DNA of 64,000 nt from Halorhabdus rudnickae (GCF_900880625.1 NZ_CAAHFB010000001.1:2170001-2234000), one strand, 5' to 3'. Counted from the first letter of the stretch, positions 30,347-42,682 are shown. Program-made: numbers and translations. The notes: generated from the sequence alone by a model not told the origin.

Positions 30347-30424
30347 CTACCCGTACTTGTAGGAGACGCCGCTCCCGTTCTCGGGGTACTCCCAGACGAC
30401 GTTGCCCTGGCGGTCCTATCGACG
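30347..30424 (-). pseudogene. Displaced 3' end of a fixX ferredoxin gene (left repeat)
   Basis: The minus strand reads DRQGNVVWEYPENGSGVSYK-YG and a stop, matching the last residues of FixX encoded at 40938. An in-frame stop directly precedes the homology and a 3-base deletion separates the weaker part. It has no start and cannot be functional. It marks the left boundary of the island. Confidence 0.85.
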
Positions 30425-30655
30425 ACCGAGTCTGTTTCGGTGGTGCTCGTCGATCCACTCGCAGCACGTCTCAAAGTTCTTGGCACCGGCGTTTTCAGCG
30501 ATATCTCGTAGGGAGCCGATGCTGATCGAATCGTGAGCCGGAACCGTCACAATGCTTGGGTCCGTGTCTTCGGGGCTGTCCGGTGGATCCCAGCGCAAGA
30601 TGAGCTGGTCTCTCGTCGTCCGGACGTGTCGAAATCCGCTGACGACTGACCGCAT
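30416..30655 (-). CDS. HicA-like toxin with altered N-terminus
   Basis: A 79-residue protein whose body matches the HicA mRNA-interferase fold: GFRHVRTTRDQLILRWDPP, then VTVPAHDSISIGSLRDIAEN and AGAKNFETCCEWIDEHH. HicA normally has an N-terminal helix that holds the body of the fold before this point and a catalytic His in a SHxxL-type strand; here that position reads RDQLILRW, so the catalytic His is not evident. The usual first ~15 residues are missing and an in-frame stop lies 33 bases upstream of the ATG. No HicB antitoxin gene is adjacent. It is probably a decayed or non-toxic remnant. Confidence 0.65.
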   Translation of the reverse strand: MRSVVSGFRHVRTTRDQLILRWDPPDSPEDTDPSIVTVPAHDSISIGSLRDIAENAGAKNFETCCEWIDEHHRNRLGRR

Positions 30656-30687
30656 CTTCTTGTATGGGAGCAGAGTCAGCCCAGTTC

Positions 30688-30885
30688 ATGCCAAATCTGT
30701 ATCTCTTGGGTTGGTTGATTGTCGTCGAAGTGGCTGCACACTGAGACTGCTACTGCAGGGACTATCCCAGCGATCCGCGCTGGCAACGTGCCGAGAAACT
30801 GATCGAGATGATCTGCACTGAGCAGGGTCTTTCTTTCCCAGAGGCAATCGTGCAGGTCGACTCTGACTGGTCGGAACCGTCGTGA
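30688..30885 (+). pseudogene. Short frame with an internal TGA
   Basis: ATG 30688 opens MPNLYLLGWLIVVEVAAH, meets TGA at 30742-30744, and then reads in the same frame as protein-like sequence DCYCRDYPSDPRWQRAEKLI then EMICTEQGLSFPEAIVQVDS before TGA at 30883. Selenocysteine use is not expected in haloarchaea, so this looks like a gene with a nonsense mutation. Family unknown. The remaining bases to 31218 show no supported gene. Confidence 0.3.
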
Positions 30886-31218
30886 GCGCATGACTAATTG
30901 GAGTCCAGATCGTCGGCATGCACGTCAGACTGACGAGATGGATGCTTAAGCGCGGATTGCGATTCCGAAGTTGCGATGTCAAACTATCTGCGATAGGTCT
31001 CGACCTCGAAGAACAACTGGGAATGCTCTCACGCTGGATAGATCGTAGAATGGGTCAGAGTATACGGAATTACTGCGAAAGCAGCGGTGCTTGCACAAAG
31101 AAACGGATTATGGTATTAACAAGACGGAGAGTGCTCTTGTTGTTGTAATAATGGACAGATCAAAGGATATTGGGGGAGGGGAAAGATTTTATACGTTTAG
31201 TTGGTCTCGAAACGAGAT

Positions 31219-31713
31219 ATGGCAATCCCTTGGGATTTTATGGTATCGATTGCGACACCGGCTTCTGTTTTCGTACTTGCGTACCAATTGAGGCAGAGAC
31301 ACAGGCAATTCAGAACGGAATTTGAAGACAAACTGACGAGTGACTATCGAGACATTGTATACGAGATTCCTGTGGATTCTTTGCTCCAAAATTCCCACTC
31401 TGACGGTTATGAGGGTGAACTGAAAGACTACTACCGATATATCGACCTCACCAATGATCAGATTCACATGAGGCAGAACGGTCGTGTAAGTAAATCTACG
31501 TGGGAGAACTGGAGAGCGGGGATTGAAACGATTTTTGGTCGGGAAGATTTTGAGGCGGCCTGGAAAGAGATCAAGGAAAGGGCGCCGGACAGTTACAATG
31601 AGATTCGAGACTTTGAGGATTCGGAGAAACCAGATGATCCCTATTACTGGGAACACCCTTGGCGTGCTCAGATCCAGGAGTGGTGGTATACTATTCGGAA
31701 TGACATAATATAG
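31219..31713 (+). CDS. Membrane-anchored protein, DUF4760-like
   Basis: A 164-residue protein. One N-terminal helix (FMVSIATPASVFVLAYQL) is followed by a charged helical stretch (RQRHRQFRTEFEDKLTSDYR) and a cytoplasmic alpha-helical body with conserved-looking Trp and Tyr (RVSKSTWENWRAGIETIF). The helix-plus-charged-coil architecture resembles DUF4760 proteins, often found in phage and defence neighbourhoods. ATG 31219 is chosen; TTG 31201 is an alternative. Codon use is AT-richer than the flanks. Confidence 0.6.
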   Translation: MAIPWDFMVSIATPASVFVLAYQLRQRHRQFRTEFEDKLTSDYRDIVYEIPVDSLLQNSHSDGYEGELKDYYRYIDLTNDQIHMRQNGRVSKSTWENWRAGIETIFGREDFEAAWKEIKERAPDSYNEIRDFEDSEKPDDPYYWEHPWRAQIQEWWYTIRNDII

Positions 31714-31743
31714 TCCGAGGAAAGCTAATCTCAACTCTTCTAA

Positions 31744-32052
31744 TTAGCCATCCTTATAGAGATTTTCCGGAAGACGGCGCCATACGTATTGATTCACCAC
31801 GGCCTGCAGTGGAGAAGGGAATGTAACAATAACGCCGGTGAGGAAAGGACCGATTCCGATTCCAAGATAAATCCTAACCGGAACACCCGAATCCCTAGTG
31901 ATGCCAAGCGAAAATCCTACATAGAACGCGAACAGGACGAATGCCGCGAGAATTAATGTAAACCCACCAATTGCGAGTATTTCAGGAACCGTGTTCGAAT
32001 ATCGCTTCAATAGGCTCCAGAAGTCACAGTAAAACTCTTTCACAGCAGTCAA
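31744..32052 (-). CDS. Two-helix membrane protein of unknown function
   Basis: A 102-residue protein with hydrophobic helices at about residues 23-49 and 56-80 joined by a short loop, and a basic C-terminal tail VNQYVWRRLPENLYKDG. No known family is recognised. It ends 31 bases after the convergent DUF4760-like gene and starts 10 bases after the stop of the HEPN-like gene on the same strand, so it may be its operon partner. Confidence 0.55.
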   Translation of the reverse strand: MTAVKEFYCDFWSLLKRYSNTVPEILAIGGFTLILAAFVLFAFYVGFSLGITRDSGVPVRIYLGIGIGPFLTGVIVTFPSPLQAVVNQYVWRRLPENLYKDG

Positions 32053-32062
32053 CCACGATCAC

Positions 32063-32950
32063 CTACTCTTCCTCAAGATATGCGATTGCTTCATCAGCTC
32101 GAAAACCAGGAATATGGTAGCCTCCTGCCTGATTACTATTGCTCACAAAAGAGAGGTCATTTGCGATTTGACGAACACGCGTATCCGAGACATCAGCTGG
32201 TTCACTATACCAGCCTGAAGAGGCTCCTTGGTTCTCAATATTTTCGAGATCAGTAGCCGCAAGACGACCTAGCATTAGTACAATAATTCGCTCGTCTGTA
32301 GCTAAATCTTCAAACTCTGCCCCGGGACGAATATCTTCACCAAAGACTTGAACCCTCCCTTCAAGCACTTCAAGAACAGCTTGGCGATCAAAATCATCAC
32401 GACTAGTTTCCAACTCAGTCAATGGATTACCGTCTGAAACCGGTGCCGAGAGTTCTTCGATGAGATCTCCGACTTCTTCCATATCATCCGTATGGTCCCC
32501 ATCCCCGTAGACACGCAGTACCTCTGCCAGCATCCAAGAACACATCGCGATTCCTGCCTGTGTGTCTGCATAGTTCACGGGAACTCGAAGGTTAACATGA
32601 ACTGAATCCCGGTTATTTCGGATATCGTAAGCTGCCCGAATCGTACGAGGGATTTGGAGACGGATACTATCAACCTCATTTAGTCCAATCTGTCCATTAA
32701 GACAATCATTGATGAAATCATCCACAGCGGGATGATCTTGTATTCCTTCACCCATTTGATCAAGCAGTATATTTACCATATTTTCACAAAAATTGCCAAT
32801 GTGTGTACCCGCTTCATCATACTCACCCTCTTGAAGTCGTCCTTGCATCCGTTGATAATGGTCAAGAAGCCGCTCAACAGACTCCTCATGTAGTTCTCCA
32901 TCTAATAATTCCCGTTGAACGCGTTCAAGACTCATCACACCGGCTAACAT
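32063..32950 (-). CDS. HEPN-like protein, possible abortive-infection type
   Basis: A 295-residue acidic protein. The helical core (about residues 20-160) carries DEAGTHIGNFCENMVNILLD and then IRNNRDSVHVN. The R111-x6-H118 spacing recalls the Rx4-6H motif of HEPN ribonucleases. After it comes MCSWMLAEVLRVYGDGDHTD, a block I associate with uncharacterised proteins near defence genes. A C-terminal region (about 190-295) looks like a winged helix. A TATA-like ATTATAAG lies about 20-28 bases before ATG 32950, which fixes the start. It is divergent from the helicase gene. RNase function is inferred from one motif only. Confidence 0.6.
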   Translation of the reverse strand: MLAGVMSLERVQRELLDGELHEESVERLLDHYQRMQGRLQEGEYDEAGTHIGNFCENMVNILLDQMGEGIQDHPAVDDFINDCLNGQIGLNEVDSIRLQIPRTIRAAYDIRNNRDSVHVNLRVPVNYADTQAGIAMCSWMLAEVLRVYGDGDHTDDMEEVGDLIEELSAPVSDGNPLTELETSRDDFDRQAVLEVLEGRVQVFGEDIRPGAEFEDLATDERIIVLMLGRLAATDLENIENQGASSGWYSEPADVSDTRVRQIANDLSFVSNSNQAGGYHIPGFRADEAIAYLEEE

Positions 32951-33196
32951 AGAGCACCCACTTATAATGCTAGGAGGATAGGCAAGGAGCCAATAGAAGT
33001 GAAGTCAGGTTAAAGGTACTGGGGATAGTTGCCATGAAGAAAATAACAATTTATCTACTGCCCATCGGACTTAGGCTACTCACAATCGGATTCGCCTACT
33101 CTTCTGAGGGGACGAGCCAAAGAATGTGTCATCGAAATATCTAAGTGTTTGGCACGTAACAGAATCAATTAACGAAGCGGATATCTACCCCAAAGC

Positions 33197-35128
33197 ATGC
33201 CCCCAAATACACAGTTTCATATCAAAGAGATTAGGGAAGCAATTGAGGAGGTACACAACGTAAAGCCATTTGTGACGACAGCCGATATTGCTGAACTCGT
33301 TGGCTGTACACCTGAAACGGCCCGTCAAAAATTATACCAGCTGACTGAAGAAGGGACCTTGGAAGCTGAACAAGTTGGCGGACGAGCGAAAGTGTGGTAC
33401 GCTCCCAAGTGGGTATCACTATCGCCAGAAGAGTCTGCCACGAAACAACCAAGCGAGGCAAACAATCAGCAAGAGAATCCTTCCTACTTGGATCCAAAGT
33501 CAGATCGAAGTTCTGCCACAAAGCAAACGAAGACAAATGACGAACGTGTTCTTTTCTTCCCTAGCCGACGTGAAGTAGTAGTAGATTCTCCCACTGATAA
33601 AAGCCAACGGACACTCGCACAAACAGCACATCTCGTGGATTCTACTGGGGATGGGTATCTCTACAAGATCGACGAGACCGACATTTGGAATGCGCCTTAT
33701 GACTCCTTCACAAGCCTTCGAGCGGATTTAATCGAGCTTATCGGTGACGATCATTGGGATGGTGGGTTCGAGAGTCGCATCAAAGAGGATTGGGATCGAG
33801 CCAATCAGTTTCGTCTGTGTACCCATCCAGACGGATATTCCGTGCTTGAAGCCCAGGATCCTGATGTCTTCGAAAACGTCGCGAAACGAAAACTAGAATA
33901 TGGTGATCACTATACCGAATTCCTCTCAGACACCGAACTTCGAGTGACACAGGGCGGTGACGCCAAGGTTAAGGAGGCACTGTATGATGCTGGCTATCCG
34001 GTCATAGATGAACGCCGATTAGAAGACGGTGCAGAGCTCGAAATCGAACTTGATAGCGGGATTGCATTGCGAGATTACCAACAGGAGTGGGTGGAGCAGT
34101 TCGGAGTTCGTCATAGTGGTGTCTTCGTTGGCCCCTCTGGAAGTGGGAAAACCATCGCTGCTCTCGGAACAATGGCGTCAGTCGGTGGTGAGTCCCTCAT
34201 TATCGTCCCAAACCGCGAACTTGTCCAACAGTGGGAAGACGAACTCACAGAGAAGACGACGTTATCGCGACGTCAAATCGGCCAGTATCACGGTGGCACA
34301 AAGCAGATTCGGCCAGTAACGATCGCCACTTACGATACAGCCGCAATGAGTCGTCACCGGAAACTGTTTAACGAGCGCGATTGGGGCCTTGTCATCGCTG
34401 ATGAATGCCATCATTCGGTGGCTTCAACTTGGAAACGATTTCGGGAGATCCAGTCTAAGGCTCGACTCGGTTTGTCGGCTACCCCCGTTCGGGAAGCGGA
34501 GGATCCGAAAGAAATCTACACGCTCATCGGGCCACCAATCGGCACAGATTGGGGTTCGCTCTTTGCTGATGGCTGGGTCGAGAAGCCAGAAGTTGAACTC
34601 ATCACTGTTCCGTGGGCCAGTGATAGCGCACGTGAACGATATCAGCGTGCTTCGGGTAGCAAGCGTCTCATTGAAGCAGCTCGCAATCCACAAAAAGCCC
34701 CAGTCATTGAAACACTAGTCGACGAACATGACGGTCAGAAAACGCTCATTTTCGTCGACTGGATTAAACAAGGAAAGGACCTCGTTTCAGAGTTAAATCT
34801 CCCCTTCGTGTACGGAGACACGAACCACGAAGAGCGCGAGCGGATTTATGATCAGTTCAGAGCGGGAGAACTTACGACACTGATCATCTCCCGTGTTGGA
34901 GACGAAGGGATCGATCTTCCTGACGCTGAAGTAGCTATCTTGGCTTCAACCATGGGGTCGTCACGTTCTCAAACTGGACAGCGCGCTGGCCGTACCATGC
35001 GCCCTCTCGGCGATGCCCAGGTGTATATCGTTCTCACAAAGGGGTCTGGGGAAGAAGATTGGGGGCGTGAAAGCACCCAATATCTTGCTGAGAAGGGCGT
35101 AGACGTAACCAAAGTTGATTGGGAATAA
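33197..35128 (+). CDS. XPB/Ssl2-like superfamily 2 helicase with N-terminal winged helix
   Basis: A 643-residue protein. Residues 18-72 form a winged helix (FVTTADIAELVGCTPETARQ). Residues 120-285 are a non-helicase region that may bind DNA. A SF2 helicase core follows: Walker A GPSGSGKT (312-319), DECH box (402-405), motif III GLSATP, motif V DEGIDLPDAEVAIL and motif VI TGQRAGRTMRP. The DRD-like layout is that of XPB-type helicases, which unwind or remodel DNA in repair and, in several defence systems, during phage restriction. No partner nuclease (such as Bax1) is adjacent. The gene is AT-richer than the chromosome flanks. Confidence 0.88.
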   Translation: MPPNTQFHIKEIREAIEEVHNVKPFVTTADIAELVGCTPETARQKLYQLTEEGTLEAEQVGGRAKVWYAPKWVSLSPEESATKQPSEANNQQENPSYLDPKSDRSSATKQTKTNDERVLFFPSRREVVVDSPTDKSQRTLAQTAHLVDSTGDGYLYKIDETDIWNAPYDSFTSLRADLIELIGDDHWDGGFESRIKEDWDRANQFRLCTHPDGYSVLEAQDPDVFENVAKRKLEYGDHYTEFLSDTELRVTQGGDAKVKEALYDAGYPVIDERRLEDGAELEIELDSGIALRDYQQEWVEQFGVRHSGVFVGPSGSGKTIAALGTMASVGGESLIIVPNRELVQQWEDELTEKTTLSRRQIGQYHGGTKQIRPVTIATYDTAAMSRHRKLFNERDWGLVIADECHHSVASTWKRFREIQSKARLGLSATPVREAEDPKEIYTLIGPPIGTDWGSLFADGWVEKPEVELITVPWASDSARERYQRASGSKRLIEAARNPQKAPVIETLVDEHDGQKTLIFVDWIKQGKDLVSELNLPFVYGDTNHEERERIYDQFRAGELTTLIISRVGDEGIDLPDAEVAILASTMGSSRSQTGQRAGRTMRPLGDAQVYIVLTKGSGEEDWGRESTQYLAEKGVDVTKVDWE

Positions 35129-35142
35129 CTTGATGGATCGAG

Positions 35143-35546
35143 CTAATCTTCTCCGTCAATAGCGGATTCGATCCGTTCAATTGCGTCACTGAGTCGTTCG
35201 ACAACAAATTCCTTATTTCCGTCTTCGTTTTCGCGGATGAGACCTTCATCATCAAGATCGCTGAAGTAGCCGCGGATGGTGCTATCGCTAGCATCAATGC
35301 GCTCATAAAAATAATCGTACTCAAGTCCGGATGTGGCTTCTTCTGTCGCTTCCGCTATATACTGCCATGCAATCAAGTGAATGAGGATTTTCTCTTTGTT
35401 TTCAACTTCCTCAATTCTGTCGTCAATATCAACCGTATTGTCTTCATATATATATCGTAGAGTTCTTTGGCCCGGTCGAATTCGTCTTCCAGAAGGGACT
35501 CAGTATCAACGTACATCTCGTCTTGAATACGCTCATCAAGCCCCAT
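35143..35546 (-). pseudogene. Winged-helix protein split by an (AT)5 frameshift
   Basis: The minus strand from ATG 35546 reads MGLDERIQDEMYVDTESLLE then DEFDRAKELYDIY, then loses frame at an (AT)5 run. Removing one AT joins it to EDNTVDIDDRIEEVENKEKI then LIHLIAWQYIAEATEEA and a winged helix (DASDSTIRGYFSDLDDEGLI) to the stop at 35143. The repaired protein is 133 residues. The downstream piece alone (from TTG 35376) could still make a 77-residue winged helix. The first 11 bases overlap the end of the gene upstream, so it belongs to that operon. Confidence 0.75.
35446..35455. repeat. (AT)5 microsatellite at a frameshift
   Basis: ATATATATAT. Four copies would keep the gene at 35143-35546 in frame and five break it. 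This fits slipped-strand change, though an assembly error is possible. Confidence 0.7.
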
Positions 35547-35934
35547 CGCTGAGCCCCTCCTCGATTTGTGTTAGACCATCTGCAGTCAGACGATGCGGCT
35601 TCGATTGGCCTTTCTCCCCATCGGGCATCGCCCATTCTTTCTCTCGAAGATTGGCCAGAACATCGCTCATGTTCGCTGGCTTTTGGACCCGGCAGGTTCG
35701 GTACTCCTCCTCAAGATCAGCACGAGTGAAGTTTTCTTGACCTTGGTATTGCTCAAGATAATACCCGATGGCCAGCGCTCGTTCTACATGTGTGCTTGGA
35801 TTGATTTGATTCACGAATTCACGTAAACCAGTCACCTCATCAGTCCCTTGTCCATCGTGAATCAGCTGTTCTAGTTCATTGACTCGGCTTTCGAGTTCTT
35901 CGACACGGGTTTCGAGGGCTTCGACTTCAGTCAT
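35536..35934 (-). CDS. Coiled-coil winged-helix protein, paralogue of the protein at 36503
   Basis: A 132-residue protein. The N-terminal heptads (ALETRVEELESRVNELEQLI) form a coiled coil. The rest is a winged-helix domain: ERALAIGYYLEQYQGQENFT then RADLEEEYRTCRVQKPANMS and a wing HRLTADGLTQIEEGL. The latter aligns along its whole length with the C-terminal domain of the 184-residue protein at 36503-37057 (GWYLEYQSDQSNFTRPEVED...). It overlaps the winged-helix genes on both sides (1 and 11 bases), so the three are one operon. Confidence 0.68.
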   Translation of the reverse strand: MTEVEALETRVEELESRVNELEQLIHDGQGTDEVTGLREFVNQINPSTHVERALAIGYYLEQYQGQENFTRADLEEEYRTCRVQKPANMSDVLANLREKEWAMPDGEKGQSKPHRLTADGLTQIEEGLSDGA

Positions 35935-36329
35935 TAGTTTTCCTCCTGTGTGAGATACTGTTTTGCGGTTTCTAGATTATGCGACGGGATTCGATATGAC
36001 CCATCGTCCGTTTCTGCAATGTTTTCATCATCAAGTCTCCGGACCGCTGGGTAAACGGACCCTTTTTTGATACCACTCTTTTCACTGATTTCCGTCGGGG
36101 TCAGCCACTGTTCCTCTTCCATTTCCAGTCCCTCAAGGGCATGCTGGGCGAGGAGAATAACCGATACTTTCTTTGGATTAGTAAGGTCCTCAAACTTCTC
36201 CTGAGGGACGATGTTCCCGCTATCATCTCCAATTCGAATGTAGTCAATTAGTGTTTCAGTGAGGAGTACTTCGCTTGCTTCCTCTTCATCAACCAGCAGA
36301 TCTTGGAAAGTCGATTGTTCTTCTGACAT
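35934..36329 (-). CDS. Winged-helix regulator-like protein
   Basis: A 131-residue protein. Residues 1-55 are acidic and helical; residues 60-130 are a winged helix, LTPTEISEKSGIKKGSVYPA then VRRLDDENIAETDDGSYRIP, with a PadR-like recognition helix. It is the first gene of a three-gene operon. A TATA-like GAATATATAC is at about 36339-36350 on the minus strand. It is divergent from the paralogous protein at 36503. DNA binding is likely, target unknown. Confidence 0.68.
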   Translation of the reverse strand: MSEEQSTFQDLLVDEEEASEVLLTETLIDYIRIGDDSGNIVPQEKFEDLTNPKKVSVILLAQHALEGLEMEEEQWLTPTEISEKSGIKKGSVYPAVRRLDDENIAETDDGSYRIPSHNLETAKQYLTQEEN

Positions 36330-36492
36330 GCTTATCGCTAGTATATATTCTAACCATTTAGATTTACTTGTACTTGAGATAGTTCGGTATATACACCCGG
36401 TAGGCTAAAATAGTCAAGGATTGGTCATTCTAAAGAACGGAGTAAAGACAAGTGAAACAAGTCACCAACAAATATATGGGAAGGATATAGTA

Positions 36493-36502
36493 GCTAGCTA
36501 GC
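36493..36502 (+). promoter_or_regulatory. GCTAGCTAGC palindrome abutting a start codon
   Basis: Self-complementary GCTAGCTAGC ends at the base before ATG 36503. A TATA-like AAATATATGG (about 36471-36480) fits a leaderless start there, so the palindrome covers the transcription start and could be an operator for one of the winged-helix proteins. Confidence 0.4.
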
Positions 36503-37057
36503 ATGGCTGAAACAACAGAAGAAATGGCATCGACAGAAACCCTTCATCTCCATGTTTCCGTTGGTGATGTGACGATTGAAGTTGAGGGACCAATTGATGA
36601 CGCTGAAACTTGGTTTGAAGGCTTAAAAGAAGATTACCTAAACGGCGTTGATTCTGAAGCAGTGGCCGCTGCTGCTACACGATCAACCACGGATGCTACA
36701 AATTCTTCAGAAGAAAAACCAGTCTCAGAAAATACCGGAACATCAACCAACAAGTCGAGGTCTTTGCAAGAATATTATAAAATGGCAAATAACCTCACTA
36801 AGCGAGACGCTGCACTTATTGTCGGTTGGTACCTTGAATACCAGAGCGATCAGTCGAATTTTACTCGACCAGAGGTCGAAGACCAAGCGCAAGATGCAAA
36901 AATCCAATTAGGGGCTAATGTGTCACGGGATCTTTCAAAACAAGTTGAGGAAAGTCATCTACAAAAAGTCGATACCCGGGAGGGAAGTGATGTGTACGAA
37001 CTCACACTCACTGGGGAAGACTATGTAGAAGATGAGCTACTCTCGCTTGAGGAGTAA
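36503..37057 (+). CDS. Two-domain protein: beta-strand N-domain plus winged helix
   Basis: A 184-residue protein. Residues 12-50 form a small domain HLHVSVGDVTIEVEGPIDDA then ETWFEGLKEDYL, a pattern seen in several haloarchaeal proteins of unknown role. A Ser/Thr-rich linker (60-92) follows. Residues 95-180 are a winged helix paralogous to that at 35536. It faces the three-gene winged-helix operon across a 173-base gap with the promoters of both. The neighbourhood (helicase, HEPN-like protein) suggests an accessory DNA-transaction or defence role; this is inference. Confidence 0.65.
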   Translation: MAETTEEMASTETLHLHVSVGDVTIEVEGPIDDAETWFEGLKEDYLNGVDSEAVAAAATRSTTDATNSSEEKPVSENTGTSTNKSRSLQEYYKMANNLTKRDAALIVGWYLEYQSDQSNFTRPEVEDQAQDAKIQLGANVSRDLSKQVEESHLQKVDTREGSDVYELTLTGEDYVEDELLSLEE

Positions 37058-37170
37058 ATCACATCAGCTATGCTGTGAGCAACGCCACGCGCGTACGTTT
37101 CGTTGGCAGGTTTGGTACACCACTACGGTACCCTAGAAAGTTATTAGAATTGCAAGTCTCGGTGCCATAC

Positions 37171-37356
37171 ATGACGGAATATCACGTCGTTCCCAGCGGC
37201 AACCAGTGGCGCCTCCAGAAAGCGGGTGGATCCGTTGTCTCGAACCACCGGAAGAAGCAGCCGGCCGTCTCCGCTGGGCAGAAGAAAACAAGCTCGGGCG
37301 ACACACTCGTTATCCACGGATCGGACGGCGCCGTCCAGGACCGCCGGAATTACTAA
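37171..37356 (+). CDS. DUF2188 small protein
   Basis: A 61-residue protein with the family pattern MTEYHVVPSGNQWRLQKAGG then SVVSNHRKKQPAVSAGQ and SSGDTLVIHGSDGAVQDRR. DUF2188 proteins are small, basic and of unknown function, sometimes called stress-related. An AT-rich AAAGTTATTAGAATT (37137-37151) lies at the place of a promoter 20-34 bases upstream. GC content returns to chromosome-like values from here. Confidence 0.85.
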   Translation: MTEYHVVPSGNQWRLQKAGGSVVSNHRKKQPAVSAGQKKTSSGDTLVIHGSDGAVQDRRNY

Positions 37357-37365
37357 CGCACTGGC

Positions 37366-37883
37366 ATGCACTCGAAAGGCCACATCGGCCTCGGGATGCT
37401 ATTCTACGCACCCGTCGCGTTCGTGCTGAGCTACTCCGATCTCCTGTCGGTGTTGGCCCTGGGACTGATCTGTGCCGTGTTCTTCAGCTACGCCCCGGAC
37501 TTCGATATGCAGCTTCCACTGGTCTCGCACCGCGGGGCGCCCACACACTCCTGGCCGGGGCGGTGGCCAGCTGCGTCGTCGCAGCGCTTGCACTCTACAG
37601 TGCCGTCAGTGGGACGTATCCGATCGACACGCATGTTGTCGTGCTGGTCGGTGCGACCTTCGGGGGTGCGTTTCTGGGCTTCCTGAGTCACCTCGCAGGG
37701 GACGTGATCACGCCGATGGGGATCCGTCCACTCCGACCGTGGTCGAGTACGCGGTACACGCTGGATTTGGTCTACGCGAAAAACGAGTGGGCTAACGAAG
37801 CGTTCGCGACGATCGGGGCTGTTGCACTCGTAGCTGCGATCTCCGGTGGGATCATGCTCCGGAATGGGACGCTCTCGTTCTGA
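37366..37883 (+). pseudogene. Membrane-bound metal-dependent hydrolase (DUF457/YdjM type), frameshifted
   Basis: Starts MHSKGHIGLGMLFYAPVAFV and continues through YAPDFDMQLPLVSHRGAPTH, the HRGxTHS metal motif of the family. The frame is then lost near 37540-37555 and resumes as LLAGAVASCVVAALALYSAV to KNEWANEAFATIGAVALVAA, ending at 37883. Dropping one CA from the run CACACA, or adding one base, restores a ~172-residue protein with four or five helices. It starts 9 bases after the DUF2188 gene. Either decay or a base-call error. Confidence 0.78.
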
Positions 37884-37960
37884 GCTGATCGTCGTGTAGG
37901 CTCACAGTCTGGCCCAAATGGCACGCGCGCCTGTGCAGGCTCCGAAAAATTCCGGTAGCC

Positions 37961-38497
37961 CTATTCGGAAATATCCGTCCTGATACGCCGTGCAAACCAA
38001 TATCCGAGGAGCGCACTTCCAACAAGGGTAACGAGAACGATTGATTCACTCACCCACCATGGAAAAATTGGCTCTATCTCGACCGCTCTGAAAACCCCCA
38101 CCAACATCGTTGCAATACCAAAGCCACCAGCTCCAATCGATCCGGCTACGATCCAACCAAGATACCGATTACGTGTCCGATATTCGTGCAGCACCATTTG
38201 TTTACTCGCCGATTCTGACGGTTTTTTCGTCATCCAAGCAAAAGAAGCTCTACTGAGAGTCATTCCGAAAACTGCCAAAAAGATAGAGAGAGCGACGATC
38301 GATACACCACTGATTGTAATTAAATTCCAGCCAACGTCCGACAGGTCTCCGAGCTGAAGGAATCCAGCTACGATCGATAACGAAATAATATTGAATTGGA
38401 TAATCCGCCCTATATTTTGTGTCTTGTTTTGGAGCCGCTGCTGTAGGAGATTTAATTCGTTTTTTGTATCTACTGGATCCCTACCTGACTCGCCCAT
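37961..38497 (-). CDS. Four-helix membrane protein of unknown function
   Basis: A 178-residue protein. An N-terminal cytoplasmic coil (NELNLLQQRLQNKTQNIGRI) is followed by four hydrophobic helices in two hairpins (about 30-50, 58-80, 112-135, 147-168) and a basic tail ARRIRTDISE. The coil-plus-paired-helix layout is like SLATT-type or other pore-forming effectors of antiviral systems, but sequence motifs are not clear enough to claim it. It stands alone between broken genes in the island. Confidence 0.5.
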   Translation of the reverse strand: MGESGRDPVDTKNELNLLQQRLQNKTQNIGRIIQFNIISLSIVAGFLQLGDLSDVGWNLITISGVSIVALSIFLAVFGMTLSRASFAWMTKKPSESASKQMVLHEYRTRNRYLGWIVAGSIGAGGFGIATMLVGVFRAVEIEPIFPWWVSESIVLVTLVGSALLGYWFARRIRTDISE

Positions 38498-38525
38498 CCT
38501 GCTGATCCAATAACACTCATCACAA

Positions 38526-38908
38526 TTAGTAGTTGAGGAAAAGGGTACGAATCATCCACTTATGTACTTCTTCGTTCCACGACACCGCAATATTACGATC
38601 ACGTTCGTTAAGGATCGCTCTCCCGTCCTCAGGTAACCTTTGCCACCCACTCATTCCACGTTTGCCCGCTTCTGGCTTGAGATACGCTGCCCGCTGGAGT
38701 TGCGCCACTACGTCTTCGATCCAATCGGGCTCATCGAGATCGTCAAGAAGCCCGTCGCGCCAGGTCGTCACGAGATCGACGTCGCCAGGCCGCGTTACGT
38801 CGATACGCCACTTGGAATCGTTCTGGGATTCGATGTCGAACCTGGCGCCGCCGTTCGAGAGCGGATGACGTGTTCGATCTCCACTTTTTCACCCGTGGGC
38901 GTTCGCAT
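38526..38908 (-). pseudogene. Small hypothetical gene, frameshifted
   Basis: From ATG 38908 the minus strand reads MRTPTGEKVEIEHVIRS, then loses frame at CGCTCTCG (plus-strand 38857-38861). Dropping one CT joins it to NGGARFDIESQNDSKWRIDV then TRPGDVDLVTTWRDGLLDDL and on to FLNY at 38526, a 126-residue protein. Its family is not recognised. Without repair, an 81-residue frame from 38768 remains. Confidence 0.6.
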
Positions 38909-39044
38909 TGTCGGCGTACAACGAGCAGGTCACGAGAGGAGGAGGCATAATAGCGGCTTGCAATTCCGAAGTCAAGTTAACAGTTACTCGATCTATTTGT
39001 CGGTTGACGGAATCCTCGGTGAGTCGGGTACTGTTGGACGGTGG

Positions 39045-39139
39045 ATTTGAGTTAGCGTCCGCCCTCGTGACTATCTCTTCATAAGTGGCGTGGTTCTGCC
39101 ACAGCTTAATCCTAATTCTAGAGAAGATATTTGAGTTAG
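39045..39139 (+). repeat. Two TTTGAGTTAG motifs upstream of fic
   Basis: ATTTGAGTTAG at 39045-39055 and 39129-39139. The second lies 26-36 bases before ATG 39165, at the promoter position. With two further copies after the gene (40326 and 40411) they frame fic and may be binding sites for its C-terminal winged helix. Confidence 0.6.
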
Positions 39140-39164
39140 GGCCACTTTCGCTTTCCTAATTACA

Positions 39165-40319
39165 ATGTCCACGGATGCACTTCCAGAAGAGGCACCGGGG
39201 AAATACGTTCCCTTCGGACAGCGGTCGTACTACCTCCCTGACGAACTCCCGCCAGCGAACGAGATCGAATTCAGCTCCGAATTTCAAGAGACACTCCAGG
39301 ATGCGATCTACCAGCTAGGTCGTCTGGAGGGGATCAGCGAGGAAACGGACGCCAGCCCGATCGTCTATACGTCACTCGTGCGGCGTGAGGCCGTCGAATC
39401 AGTTCTCATCGAAGGGGCAAATATCGAACTCGAGGATCTCTTTCGGCCCGAGGACATCGATCATGGCGAAACGACCAAAGACATCCGCGAGGGCGTAAAC
39501 TACGAGACGGCCGTTCGGGAGGGGGCCGCTCGTGTCTCTGAGGACGGGGAGATCTCGATCGACTTGCTCGACGACCTTCACGGAACGCTCATGGAGGGCG
39601 TCCGTGACGAAGGTGAAAGTGCTGGTACGTTTCGGACGGCACCGGTCCACATCCCCCCACCAGAGCCCCATTTGACGCCGTATATTCCACCCGCTGCCAC
39701 GCAGGTCCCGGATCTCGTGGCTAATCTCGTCACCTACATCCAGAGCGGTGGCGCTTACCACGACCTCGTTGACCTCGGAATCGTCCACTATCAGTTCGAG
39801 ACGATTCACCCGTACGGCGACGGAAACGGTCGCCTCGGCCGATTGTTGATCACGCTCCAACTCATCCAGCAGGGCTATCTGACTGAGCCGTACCTCTACC
39901 CGAGCGCGTATTTCAACGAGCACAAGATCGAGTATGTCACCCGCATGCGTGCGGTGAGCGAGGAGGGCGCCTGGGAACCATGGCTCCAGTTCTTCGTCGA
40001 CGGTATCCGTCAGCAGGCGGCGGATGCGATTACGCGAACGAACGAACTACGGGAATTGCGCCGGAAGTACGAGGCACGCTACGGCCACGAAAAGACCGCG
40101 AGAGACCGGTTGGCGATGCGGCTCTTTCAGTATCCGTACGTCACGACCAACGAGGTGGAGGCGTTACTCGACGTCTCTCACCAGACCGCACGGAACGCGA
40201 TAACCGACCTGGAGAACGAGGGCGTACTTCAGGAAACGACTGGGAAAGAGCGCTATCAGGAGTTCAAGGCCGTGGACATCTTCGATATCTTGACCCGGTC
40301 GTTCGAGAACACGGAATAA
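39165..40319 (+). CDS. Fic-domain protein with C-terminal winged helix
   Basis: A 384-residue Fic protein that would transfer AMP to Ser, Thr or Tyr of a target. The catalytic motif is intact: HPYGDGNGRLGR (residues 215-226), with H215 as base and the anion-binding loop after it. The inhibitory helix motif S-x3-E-G occurs as SVLIEG (79-84) before the core, a class II layout, so the enzyme is self-inhibited. The C-terminus (about 310-375) is a winged helix, TTNEVEALLDVSHQTARNAI, as in SoFic-type proteins. No separate antitoxin is needed in this class. It is monocistronic and bracketed by TTTGAGTTAG motifs. Confidence 0.92.
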   Translation: MSTDALPEEAPGKYVPFGQRSYYLPDELPPANEIEFSSEFQETLQDAIYQLGRLEGISEETDASPIVYTSLVRREAVESVLIEGANIELEDLFRPEDIDHGETTKDIREGVNYETAVREGAARVSEDGEISIDLLDDLHGTLMEGVRDEGESAGTFRTAPVHIPPPEPHLTPYIPPAATQVPDLVANLVTYIQSGGAYHDLVDLGIVHYQFETIHPYGDGNGRLGRLLITLQLIQQGYLTEPYLYPSAYFNEHKIEYVTRMRAVSEEGAWEPWLQFFVDGIRQQAADAITRTNELRELRRKYEARYGHEKTARDRLAMRLFQYPYVTTNEVEALLDVSHQTARNAITDLENEGVLQETTGKERYQEFKAVDIFDILTRSFENTE

Positions 40320-40937
40320 ATCTAGATTTGAGTTAGCATCGGAATCGATAGCGTCCCTCTATGAAGAATTGTCGGCCATATCCCGTTATAACTGAGAAAC
40401 CATCGTTTCATTTTGAGTTAGACCGATTCGCGGCCAGATACTAAACAGATCTCCTGGACTGTTCGTTATCCGATACAGATCGGTTCTGGGTACACGACCT
40501 GTCTGTTGCTGGTCTTCCCAATCTTCGTGAGAACTGTTTTTAGGCCCCAAACAAGCACATTTCATCTATTTGGTCATCGTGTCGAGAGCATTTTGCTTGG
40601 ATCCCGTACTTGTGCTGGATTTCGCTCTACTTCCATACATCCGGATGCCGACTATACCTCCACTCGAACAACACTCTCACGCCACCGCCGGTAGTTCGAT
40701 CGGCGGCTCGACCGCTGCACCGAGCACTCGATACTACCGGTCGCTGGTTTTCTCTCGATCGCGATCAGACCGTCCTTCCAGCTTGGTGAGCTTTTGCCGG
40801 CGCGCTCGCTGGCCGATGGGCATCTGTGGGATTTCTCGATCCGGCGCGTCGGCGTCACCAGGATCGGCCCGTGCCATGCTGCTGAATAGTCCGGAAAGTG
40901 ATAAAAACCTTCGTGAGCCTAGCCCGTCTCCGACGCG
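40320..40937. other. Island right-end non-coding stretch
   Basis: About 620 bases with no supported gene between fic and the fixX end. It holds two TTTGAGTTAG motifs at its left edge (40326-40336, 40411-40421). No integrase remnant was recognised on either strand. Confidence 0.4.
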
Positions 40938-41255
40938 CTATCCGTACTTGTAGGAAACGCCGGACCCGTTCTCGGGGTACTCCCAGACGACGTTGCCGTG
41001 CTGGCAGGCCCATCGGCAACTGCCACACTCCAGGCAGTTCTCGTAGGCGATCGTCGGGACGCTGTCGTTGCCCTCCATCCGCCAGACGTTGGCGGGACAG
41101 ACCGAGACGCAGTCCTGGGTGACGCATTTCTCCTCGCAGATCCCGGGCAGTTTCACGTCGAGGTGGGACTCGCCGGGGTCCTCGTACTTGACCGTGTAGA
41201 GGCGGTCCTCGATCGATGGCTGTTCGACGTCGGGGGTTTTGGGGTGTGCACTCAT
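40938..41255 (-). CDS. fixX: FixX ferredoxin-like protein of the ETF-quinone system
   Basis: A 105-residue electron carrier for the ETF:quinone oxidoreductase FixC. Cys ligands lie in CEEKCVTQDCVSVCPANVW and CLECGSCRWACQHGN, enough for one or two iron-sulfur clusters. Start ATG 41255 (MSAHPKTPDV) is chosen because it follows the fixC stop by 2 bases. It is the last gene of fixABCX. The final 60 bases are repeated at 30347, marking the end of the inserted island. Confidence 0.93.
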   Translation of the reverse strand: MSAHPKTPDVEQPSIEDRLYTVKYEDPGESHLDVKLPGICEEKCVTQDCVSVCPANVWRMEGNDSVPTIAYENCLECGSCRWACQHGNVVWEYPENGSGVSYKYG

Positions 41256-41257
41256 AG

Positions 41258-42682
41258 TCAGCGGAATAGCTTGCGGTATTTCCAGGCTTTCTTCGCCGCA
41301 CCGAGGTAACCACCCATCGCACCGACGAGGCGCTTGCGGGCGGATTTCGTGTGGCGGGTCTTCGGTTCGTCGTTCATCCGGAAGTAGTCGGTCTCGGCGT
41401 CGGCGAGTGCCTGTGGCAAGTCGTCGAAGAGGAACTTTTTGTCTTCGGCCGCGGCGTCGAGGAACCACCCGTAGTGGTTCAGGTTGTCCATCACCCAGGA
41501 CGCTTCGAGGGCATCCTCGTAGTCGGCGAGTGCCGCGGCGTCGGTTCGGCCGGTTTCGACCGCGCTGGCGACGGCTTTCCCGGCCTGGTAGCCGCTCTCG
41601 ACGGCCATGTTTGTGCCTTCCAGATGCAGGCCGTTGTTGAGCACCAGTCCGGCCGCATCGCCAGTGATCACCGCGCCGTCGTGGACGAGGTCGGGCATCG
41701 CGTCGGGGCCGCTTTCCGGGATCGCGTGGGCGGAGTACTCGATCATCCGTCCACCCTTGACCAGCGGTGCGACCGCCGGATGGGACTTGAAGTCATCGAG
41801 CACGTCGTCGGGGCTCCGCTCGTCGTGGACAGCGTCCTCGATGGAGTAGACGACGCCGATAGCCAGCGTGCGCTTGTTCGTGTAGATGAACCCGCCGCCG
41901 ACGGCGTCGCCGACCGCACCGTCGCCGAAGTAGTGGATCGCGGCCCCTTCTTCGTCGGTGAGGTGGAAGCGATCCTCGATGGTCTCCCGGTCGTACTTGC
42001 GGACCTCCTTTGCGGAGACCGCGACGTCCTTGCGCTGCTGGGGTTCGGCTAGGCCGGCCCCCTCGCTGACCAGCGAGTTGGCCCCCTCCGCGAGGACAAC
42101 TGTCGGCGCGTGCAGCGTGCCGTCCGGTCGGTCGGTCTCGACACCGGCGATAGCCCCGTCCTCGCGGACGAGATCGGTTACTGTGGTCTCAGTGATCAGC
42201 GTCGCCCCGGCCTCGACAGCCTGCTCGGCGAACCACTCGTCGAAGTCCCCGCGCAGGACCATCCAGGAGTCGTTGTGTGGTTCTTCCTTCCAGGCCGCCG
42301 GCTGCATCGAGACCTCCGTCGCGTCGCCTTCCTCGGAAAGCATCGAAAAGGTCTTCTCGGCGACGAAGCGCTGCTTCGGCGCATCATCGAAGTCCGTCAG
42401 CTCTCGAATGCGAGGCGTGAACAGGATCCCGCCGAAGACGTTCTTCGTTCCAGGGGAGTTACCCCGTTCGAGGATGATGACGTCCAAACCCTCCTCGGCC
42501 ATCGTCAGTGCGGCAGTGCTCCCTGCGAGACCCGCTCCGACGACGATCGCGTCGAACTCGCCGTCGTAGTTGGGCGTCTCGCTGGTGGGCTGGGGCATCG
42601 GTGGCCCCTCGCTGTCCTCGTCTGTCTGCTCGGGTTCCGGTTCGACGCCATTGTTCTCTCCTGATTGGGCGTCGGTACTCAT
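41258..42682 (-). CDS. fixC: ETF-quinone oxidoreductase FixC
   Basis: FAD-containing membrane-associated oxidoreductase that passes electrons from the flavoprotein FixAB to quinone. An acidic N-terminal extension of about 40 residues precedes the FAD motif FDAIVVGAGLAGSTAALTMA. The body carries VITGDAAGLVLNNGLHLEGT and a C-terminal segment typical of the GG-reductase/FixC family. It overlaps the fixB stop by 4 bases. In FixABCX, NADH oxidation can drive both quinone and low-potential ferredoxin reduction by electron bifurcation; whether it does so in this organism is inference. Confidence 0.93.
   Translation of the reverse strand: MSTDAQSGENNGVEPEPEQTDEDSEGPPMPQPTSETPNYDGEFDAIVVGAGLAGSTAALTMAEEGLDVIILERGNSPGTKNVFGGILFTPRIRELTDFDDAPKQRFVAEKTFSMLSEEGDATEVSMQPAAWKEEPHNDSWMVLRGDFDEWFAEQAVEAGATLITETTVTDLVREDGAIAGVETDRPDGTLHAPTVVLAEGANSLVSEGAGLAEPQQRKDVAVSAKEVRKYDRETIEDRFHLTDEEGAAIHYFGDGAVGDAVGGGFIYTNKRTLAIGVVYSIEDAVHDERSPDDVLDDFKSHPAVAPLVKGGRMIEYSAHAIPESGPDAMPDLVHDGAVITGDAAGLVLNNGLHLEGTNMAVESGYQAGKAVASAVETGRTDAAALADYEDALEASWVMDNLNHYGWFLDAAAEDKKFLFDDLPQALADAETDYFRMNDEPKTRHTKSARKRLVGAMGGYLGAAKKAWKYRKLFR

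Follow-up and report, generated by a model that had tools for sequence, protein, structure and literature searches.

A motor, winged-helix and HEPN gene cluster on a repeat-bounded island of Halorhabdus rudnickae is a candidate haloarchaeal anti-invader system

We analyzed a 64,000-nucleotide stretch of Halorhabdus rudnickae DNA (GCF_900880625.1 NZ_CAAHFB010000001.1:2170001-2234000; hereafter the window, with positions counted from its first letter) and found that a gene cluster at 32063-37057 encodes a predicted HEPN RNase fused to a winged helix, an XPB-like helicase and further winged-helix proteins, relatives of which recur together in other haloarchaea with motor and effector exchanged. 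We consider it somewhat probable, at roughly 55%, that the cluster is a modular haloarchaeal anti-invader system, combining a motor, winged-helix proteins and a HEPN protein on an integrated island. Other genomes and related loci are denoted below by numbers prefixed G and L, respectively. The cluster is composed of the following genes:

32063-32950 (−): C, 295 residues, predicted HEPN domain (residues ~8-170) followed by a winged-helix module (residues ~172-295)
33197-35128 (+): D, XPB-like superfamily 2 (SF2) helicase with an N-terminal winged helix (Pfam/NCBIfam, tree)
35143-35546 (−): E, predicted winged-helix gene with a broken frame; a 77-residue open reading frame (35143-35376) is its 3′ part
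35536-35934 (−): F, coiled coil plus winged-helix-like domain (family alignment)
35934-36329 (−): G, predicted winged-helix protein with weak TrmB/helix-turn-helix (HTH) matches; its stop overlaps the start of F
36503-37057 (+): H, F paralogue with an additional N-terminal domain (family alignment)

Much of this layout had been described in an earlier, sequence-only reading, and all of its named open reading frames were found where it put them. The 295-residue protein with the RNNRDSVH motif is present as C and is divergent from D, and the cluster is richer in A+T than its flanks, with 47.4% G+C; beyond the island, the window has 61.6%, and none of the 5-kb stretches sampled there falls below 55.3%. 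Four of its descriptions required revision. The four winged-helix genes E, F, G (35143-36329, −) and H are placed as claimed, but E is frame-broken, the 77-residue open reading frame representing only its 3′ part. H is a paralogue of F that has gained an N-terminal domain not shared with it. The cluster holds six predicted winged-helix modules, as C also ends in a module of the G/E type and that at the N-terminus of D is counted. Finally, the real unit is larger than 32063-37057, namely a 10.5-kb island (30410-40937) between 63-nt direct repeats.

The identity of C emerged from whole-genome searches and structure prediction. The searches matched C in two separate parts, residues 6-172 and residues 172-295, the latter also by stand-alone proteins of ~145 residues, and the C-terminus carries the same predicted winged-helix module as G and E. 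Neither Pfam, PADLOC, PHROG nor NCBIfam gave a match of weight, a profile search against the sequences of solved structures gave none, and a back-translated-peptide search of genome and viral contigs also returned no match, probably being too strict for so divergent a protein, given that the whole-genome searches succeeded. We built an AlphaFold2 model from eight relatives (predicted local distance difference test score, pLDDT, 71.8), in which residues 17-150 aligned with 2hsb (Z 12.0, 123 aligned residues, 3.3 Å), a score to be read with the caveat that Foldseek E-values for this model are weak taken alone and that middling Z scores can arise by chance with helical bundles. Further HEPN matches were 3o10 (human sacsin HEPN, Z 11.3), 1ufb (TT1696, 11.1), 1wol (ST0689, 10.3) and 2q00 (9.9), with Csm6, HepT, AbiV and RnlA lower in the ranking. 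Because HEPN structures fill most of the top rows, the predicted structure does have the HEPN core whose absence the earlier reading had named beforehand as refuting it. C also carries IRNNRDSVH, in which the R-x4-6-H motif of HEPN proteins takes the form R-x6-H, and this was retained in 7/8 relatives, the exception being the one near BrxC. We accordingly read C as a HEPN domain joined to a predicted winged-helix module and as a putative RNA-cutting enzyme.

We determined gene co-occurrence across 392 haloarchaeal genomes, excluding the window's own. HEPN and F occurred together in 3 genomes compared to 0.15 expected (p = 2.3e-4), D and F in 3 compared to 0.18 (p = 4e-4), and D and HEPN in 2 compared to 0.11 (p = 4e-3); for D, F and HEPN, the proposal that the cluster genes co-occur elsewhere beyond chance was thus borne out. 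The co-occurring genes were adjacent in every such genome except G253, where adjacency is presumed since F-G and E-HEPN sit at the starts of separate contigs (C8 and C13, respectively). In G048 and G259, which represent two other genera, five genes in the order D-G-F-E-C make up one tight co-directional operon, where successive genes from G to C are spaced by −11 to +18 bp. Related assemblies include a locus in G266 with H, D, two winged-helix genes and a HEPN-winged-helix gene, a Halorubrum CBA1229 plasmid with D, H, four winged-helix genes and a fusion bearing a second type of HEPN domain, and a G299 locus with D-G-F-E, in which E is fused to this second HEPN type, plus H.

The winged-helix trio is not tied to a single motor or a single effector. 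G-F-E was also found with HerA/DUF87 ATPases in place of D, in arrangements that further include two proteins we call X, which carries PF09821, and Y. The gene set winged helix-Y-HerA faces X-E-F-G in H. hubeiense pSTJ003, G374 and G101, and the same arrangement apparently spans the origin of the Haloarcula SYNS111 plasmid; the order is HerA-G-F-E-X in G116 and G049, while G253 has E-HEPN with HerA-Y-winged helix. Because X-E-F-G or G-F-E-X and E-HEPN orders both occur, HEPN and X share one position after E. The system is modular: its motor is either D or a HerA-type ATPase, and the slot after E holds either HEPN or X. Winged-helix modules of these kinds also carry other predicted RNases. An E-type module is fused to a PIN domain (PF01850, E 1e-10) in L039 (9240-10061), and in G299, CBA1229 and G116, winged-helix proteins end in the second HEPN type. 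The family of fusions between an F-like winged helix and this HEPN type was matched in 22/323 genomes, and its model (pLDDT 86) places the HEPN domain after a winged helix, with 2hsb as a structural match (Foldseek probability 1.00, Z 11.3). We handled the two HEPN types as separate families because hhalign found no similarity between them.

D carries ResIII (PF04851), the XPB C-terminal domain (PF16203) and Helicase_C (PF00271), all above the Pfam cut-off, together with an N-terminal HTH, in agreement with its initial description as an SF2 XPB-like helicase with its own winged helix. It scored 348.7 bits against the NCBIfam XPB model, under the equivalog cut-off of 610, and matched XPB chains in the PDB at E of about 1e-38. 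Ten D sequences formed a single clade (support 100/100) apart from the widespread haloarchaeal XPB, which matches D residues 112-642 at about 570-600 bits and accounts for most of the 341/392 genomes with a match. Full-length relatives (at least 850 bits, N-terminal winged helix included) were present in 7/392 genomes and in G299, whose D gene (L038 4788-8987) is split within motif II (DEC...HNCHH) by an intein-like insertion of about 470 residues. The XPB carried by most other haloarchaeal genomes had no match at E ≤ 1e-150 in G001-G006, which belong to the window's genus. Members of the D clade keep the motifs GPSGSGKT, DECHH, SATP and QRxGR (QRAGR in D); however, at the site that we take to be the RED motif, the third residue is changed in 10/10 members (VREA, VRES or IRES, compared to VRED or TRED in the two widespread XPBs inspected). 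As the RED motif of XPB is linked to unwinding, its alteration suggests that D may be a translocase.

All HTH matches of E, F, G and H were sub-threshold (for G and E, TrmB at 22.9 bits compared to a cut-off of 25.6) and the best PDB sequence match for G/E was weak (E 0.0014); in the winged-helix/HEPN fusion, a good model shows the N-terminal domain, which is related to F, as a winged helix. H is 27% identical to F, the F/H family occurs in 13/392 genomes, and the family of modules represented by G, E and the C-terminus of C in 18/323. The frame of E breaks inside an (AT)5 tract, the 5′ part (MGLDERIQDEM...) of a ~130-residue gene lying in another frame; homologues of ~130 residues were found in L023, L026, L027, L032 and L033, and the break is possibly an assembly error, decay or phase variation. 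Small proteins with the pattern MEI.I.F.DGP...EI..SEEEDY, which resemble the N-terminal domain of H, adjoin many clusters (L024 11498-12953, L026 8095-8760, L027 12753-13400, L022 13103-13786 and L025 1427-1729).

The boundaries of the surrounding island were located by repeat comparison, and its features outside the cluster genes are:

30347-30409: left copy of the 63-nt direct repeat, a copy of the fixX 3′ end and probable attachment (att) site, 92% identical to 40938-41000
30410-40937: accessory island between the repeats, 10.5 kb, G+C 50.6%
31744-32052 (−): B, downstream of C by 10 bp, encodes a small predicted membrane protein
40938-41000: right repeat copy, the 3′ end of the resident fixX-like ferredoxin gene (40938-41468, −; ...HGNVVWEYPENGSGVSYKYG*)

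In G001, which lacks the island, about 65 bp separate the left flank (to 29647) from the right flank (from 40925); the sister species G003-G006 lack it as well. The repeat is single-copy at the site in these five sister species, and G002 has two copies 1.27 kb apart (L109 11301-12634). Because the repeats bound the island and sister species hold one copy (two in G002), the 3′ end of fixX is likely the integration site. In seven other contexts, a search for flanking direct repeats gave nothing like an island boundary, apart from a 42-nt pair in L057 (4557/12486) and some duplicated stretches in L026. Amongst the remaining island genes, B had no relatives in the related loci examined, and a weak PADLOC-scan match of gene A to SspD (E 0.002) was judged chance. 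A YdjM-like membrane protein gene (37366-37883, +) has an apparent frame break near 37545, and a relative of it (52% over 44 residues) lies near a D gene in L092. SoFic-like Fic genes are found near the cluster in three loci (window 39165-40319, +; L026 17684-19003; L058 6104-7288).

Some relatives lie amongst known defence genes. In G388, one relative of C is found near BrxC (2496 bits), while another adjoins an SspH-like protein in G094; a type II/IIG methyltransferase adjoins the operon of G048, a stand-alone winged-helix relative adjoins an Mrr-like restriction endonuclease in G096 (L036 9806-11030), and in G241 a type IIG enzyme is encoded about 5 kb away from D. Amongst phage records, neither C nor G had a match, and a single unannotated record matched D at 34%. 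Members of the system are plasmid-borne in Halorubrum CBA1229, H. hubeiense pSTJ003, Haloarcula SYNS111, N. pharaonis PL131 and Haladaptatus QDMS2.

In the anti-invader system that we propose, G, F and E (and H) would form a nucleic-acid-binding or adaptor platform that brings the D motor, or a HerA-type ATPase in other loci, to foreign DNA. Engagement or stalling of the motor, or viral attack on it, would release or activate C, which would be held in place via its winged-helix module and whose HEPN RNase would then cleave RNA and stop the virus or the cell. Domains and folds, operon layout, recurrence, the exchange of motor and effector and the borders of the island are observed here, whereas assembly into a complex, recognition of foreign DNA, RNA cleavage and the antiviral effect are inferred. 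The earlier reading had left the choice between defence and element maintenance open. That the cluster is an uncharacterised system is well supported, as the HEPN and XPB-like assignments hold and the genes co-occur beyond chance; as for its function, defence is favoured over maintenance, since the same winged-helix modules carry two HEPN types dissimilar in sequence as well as a PIN RNase, and since some relatives adjoin BREX, SspH-like, restriction-modification (RM) or Mrr-type genes while the phage records searched gave no close relatives. A number of observations nevertheless weigh against a defence function. The co-occurrence counts are small (7-11 positive genomes per gene), and fractions amongst the related loci are biased because some of these contexts were chosen for holding C or F, the genome-wide counts alone being free of this bias. 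Searches with PADLOC, Pfam and NCBIfam models assigned none of C, E, F, G and H to defence. The copy in the window may be partly inactive because E is frame-broken, and the relative of C near BrxC in L030 (9099-9980) has lost the HEPN R...H motif, possibly marking an inactive copy. Four members of the D clade (G241, G301, G224 and G189) have neither G-F-E nor HEPN nearby, so D has other partners too; in G224 and G189, D is followed by a protein of ~330 residues that is faintly X-like (E 0.001). Lastly, with many members plasmid-borne, selection for maintenance on plasmids is possible.

This last point bears on the alternative that the cluster is an addiction module stabilizing plasmids and islands, with a HEPN or PIN toxin, winged-helix antitoxins or regulators, and a motor for replication or partition of the element. 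The repeat-flanked island of the window copy, the overlap of winged-helix genes with the HEPN gene in operons and the Fic gene within the same island all fit this account, but a two-gene toxin-antitoxin pair has no need of a motor of the SF2 or HerA type or of 4-6 winged-helix paralogues, the winged-helix modules of the HEPN proteins are fused rather than separate, and no integrase, replication or partition gene was recognised amongst the island genes; we regard it as unlikely, though a serious contender. It is improbable that the cluster is an accessory of DNA repair or gene conversion, in which D is another Rad25/XPB helicase regulated or loaded by the winged-helix proteins and HEPN is a bystander. 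D is indeed homologous to XPB across the helicase core (NCBIfam, PDB), and Rad25 paralogues matter in Haloferax volcanii gene conversion (PMC11276520); however, the D clade is separate and rare (about 8/392 genomes) compared to the widespread XPB, the third residue of its RED-like motif is changed, D is linked to RNases, and HerA can replace it in G-F-E loci. We think it equally doubtful that these are merely fast-evolving genes of mobile islands travelling together rather than one machine. Gene content does vary by locus, D occurs without G-F-E in the four genomes above and some winged-helix genes stand alone, but overlapping co-directional operons with the same order across genera, and a fixed slot after E for HEPN or X, are unexpected of chance neighbours.

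Beyond the anti-invader reading of this one island, we tentatively propose, at a little short of even odds, that it belongs to a haloarchaeal immune family that pairs the G-F-E trio with an XPB-derived or HerA-type motor and a terminal HEPN or X, and in which a transcription/repair helicase lineage serves as an immune sensor. Archaeal immunity is poorly charted, and in nearly a third of archaeal genomes no system besides CRISPR-Cas and RM is seen (PMC12988326). If our proposal is true, the profile libraries used here have missed a defence family, an XPB-lineage motor has been co-opted for immunity, and the loci offer a test case for the exchange of sensor motor and effector around a constant adaptor set. 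Direct testing is feasible since haloarchaeal genetic hosts and viruses exist. We found no description of this cluster in the open-access literature; one may exist elsewhere.

Work on Pbe, BREX, HEPN, HerA and archaeal immunity describes analogous logic (PMC12839542, PMC3710099, PMC6459918, PMC10853773, PMC12988326). HEPN domains serve as auxiliary effectors in BREX-type and RM systems, and BREX and BREX-related (DUF499/Hma) systems likewise join large motors or ATPases to winged-helix DNA-binding modules and have a HEPN RNase that is proposed to act as back-up effector (PMC12839542, PMC3710099). However, no BrxC/PglY/DUF499 ATPase, PglX, PglZ or methyltransferase was recognised amongst the scanned island genes, BrxC was met only beside the C relative in L030, and the motor here is XPB-like. 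The DndCDEA-PbeABCD system is also haloarchaeal and has a ResIII/helicase component (PMC6459918), and PbeA models were the best PADLOC match of D (3.4e-35). We rejected D as a PbeA, the match being partial: PbeA has a PLD domain, of which D shows no match, and its partners are an SMC-like PbeC and small PbeB and PbeD (PMC6459918), whereas no SMC-like PbeC or Dnd genes were recognised amongst the scanned genes of island and flanks. HEPN-MNT toxin-antitoxin systems (PDC-M05; PMC12988326) have the HEPN RNase fold in common with C, but no nucleotidyltransferase match was found amongst the genes beside C. XPB/Rad25 repair helicases share with D the helicase core and C-terminal domain, while D differs in its own N-terminal winged helix, altered RED-like motif, accessory distribution and separate clade. 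Systems centred on HerA/FtsK combine fast-evolving winged-helix proteins with nucleases (PMC10853773), and related loci here similarly join G-F-E to HerA-type ATPases and winged-helix proteins; those systems, however, have an Orc/CDC6 ATPase and inactive plus active restriction endonuclease domains (PMC10853773), whereas the loci described here have HEPN or X in the terminal slot and may use an XPB-like motor.

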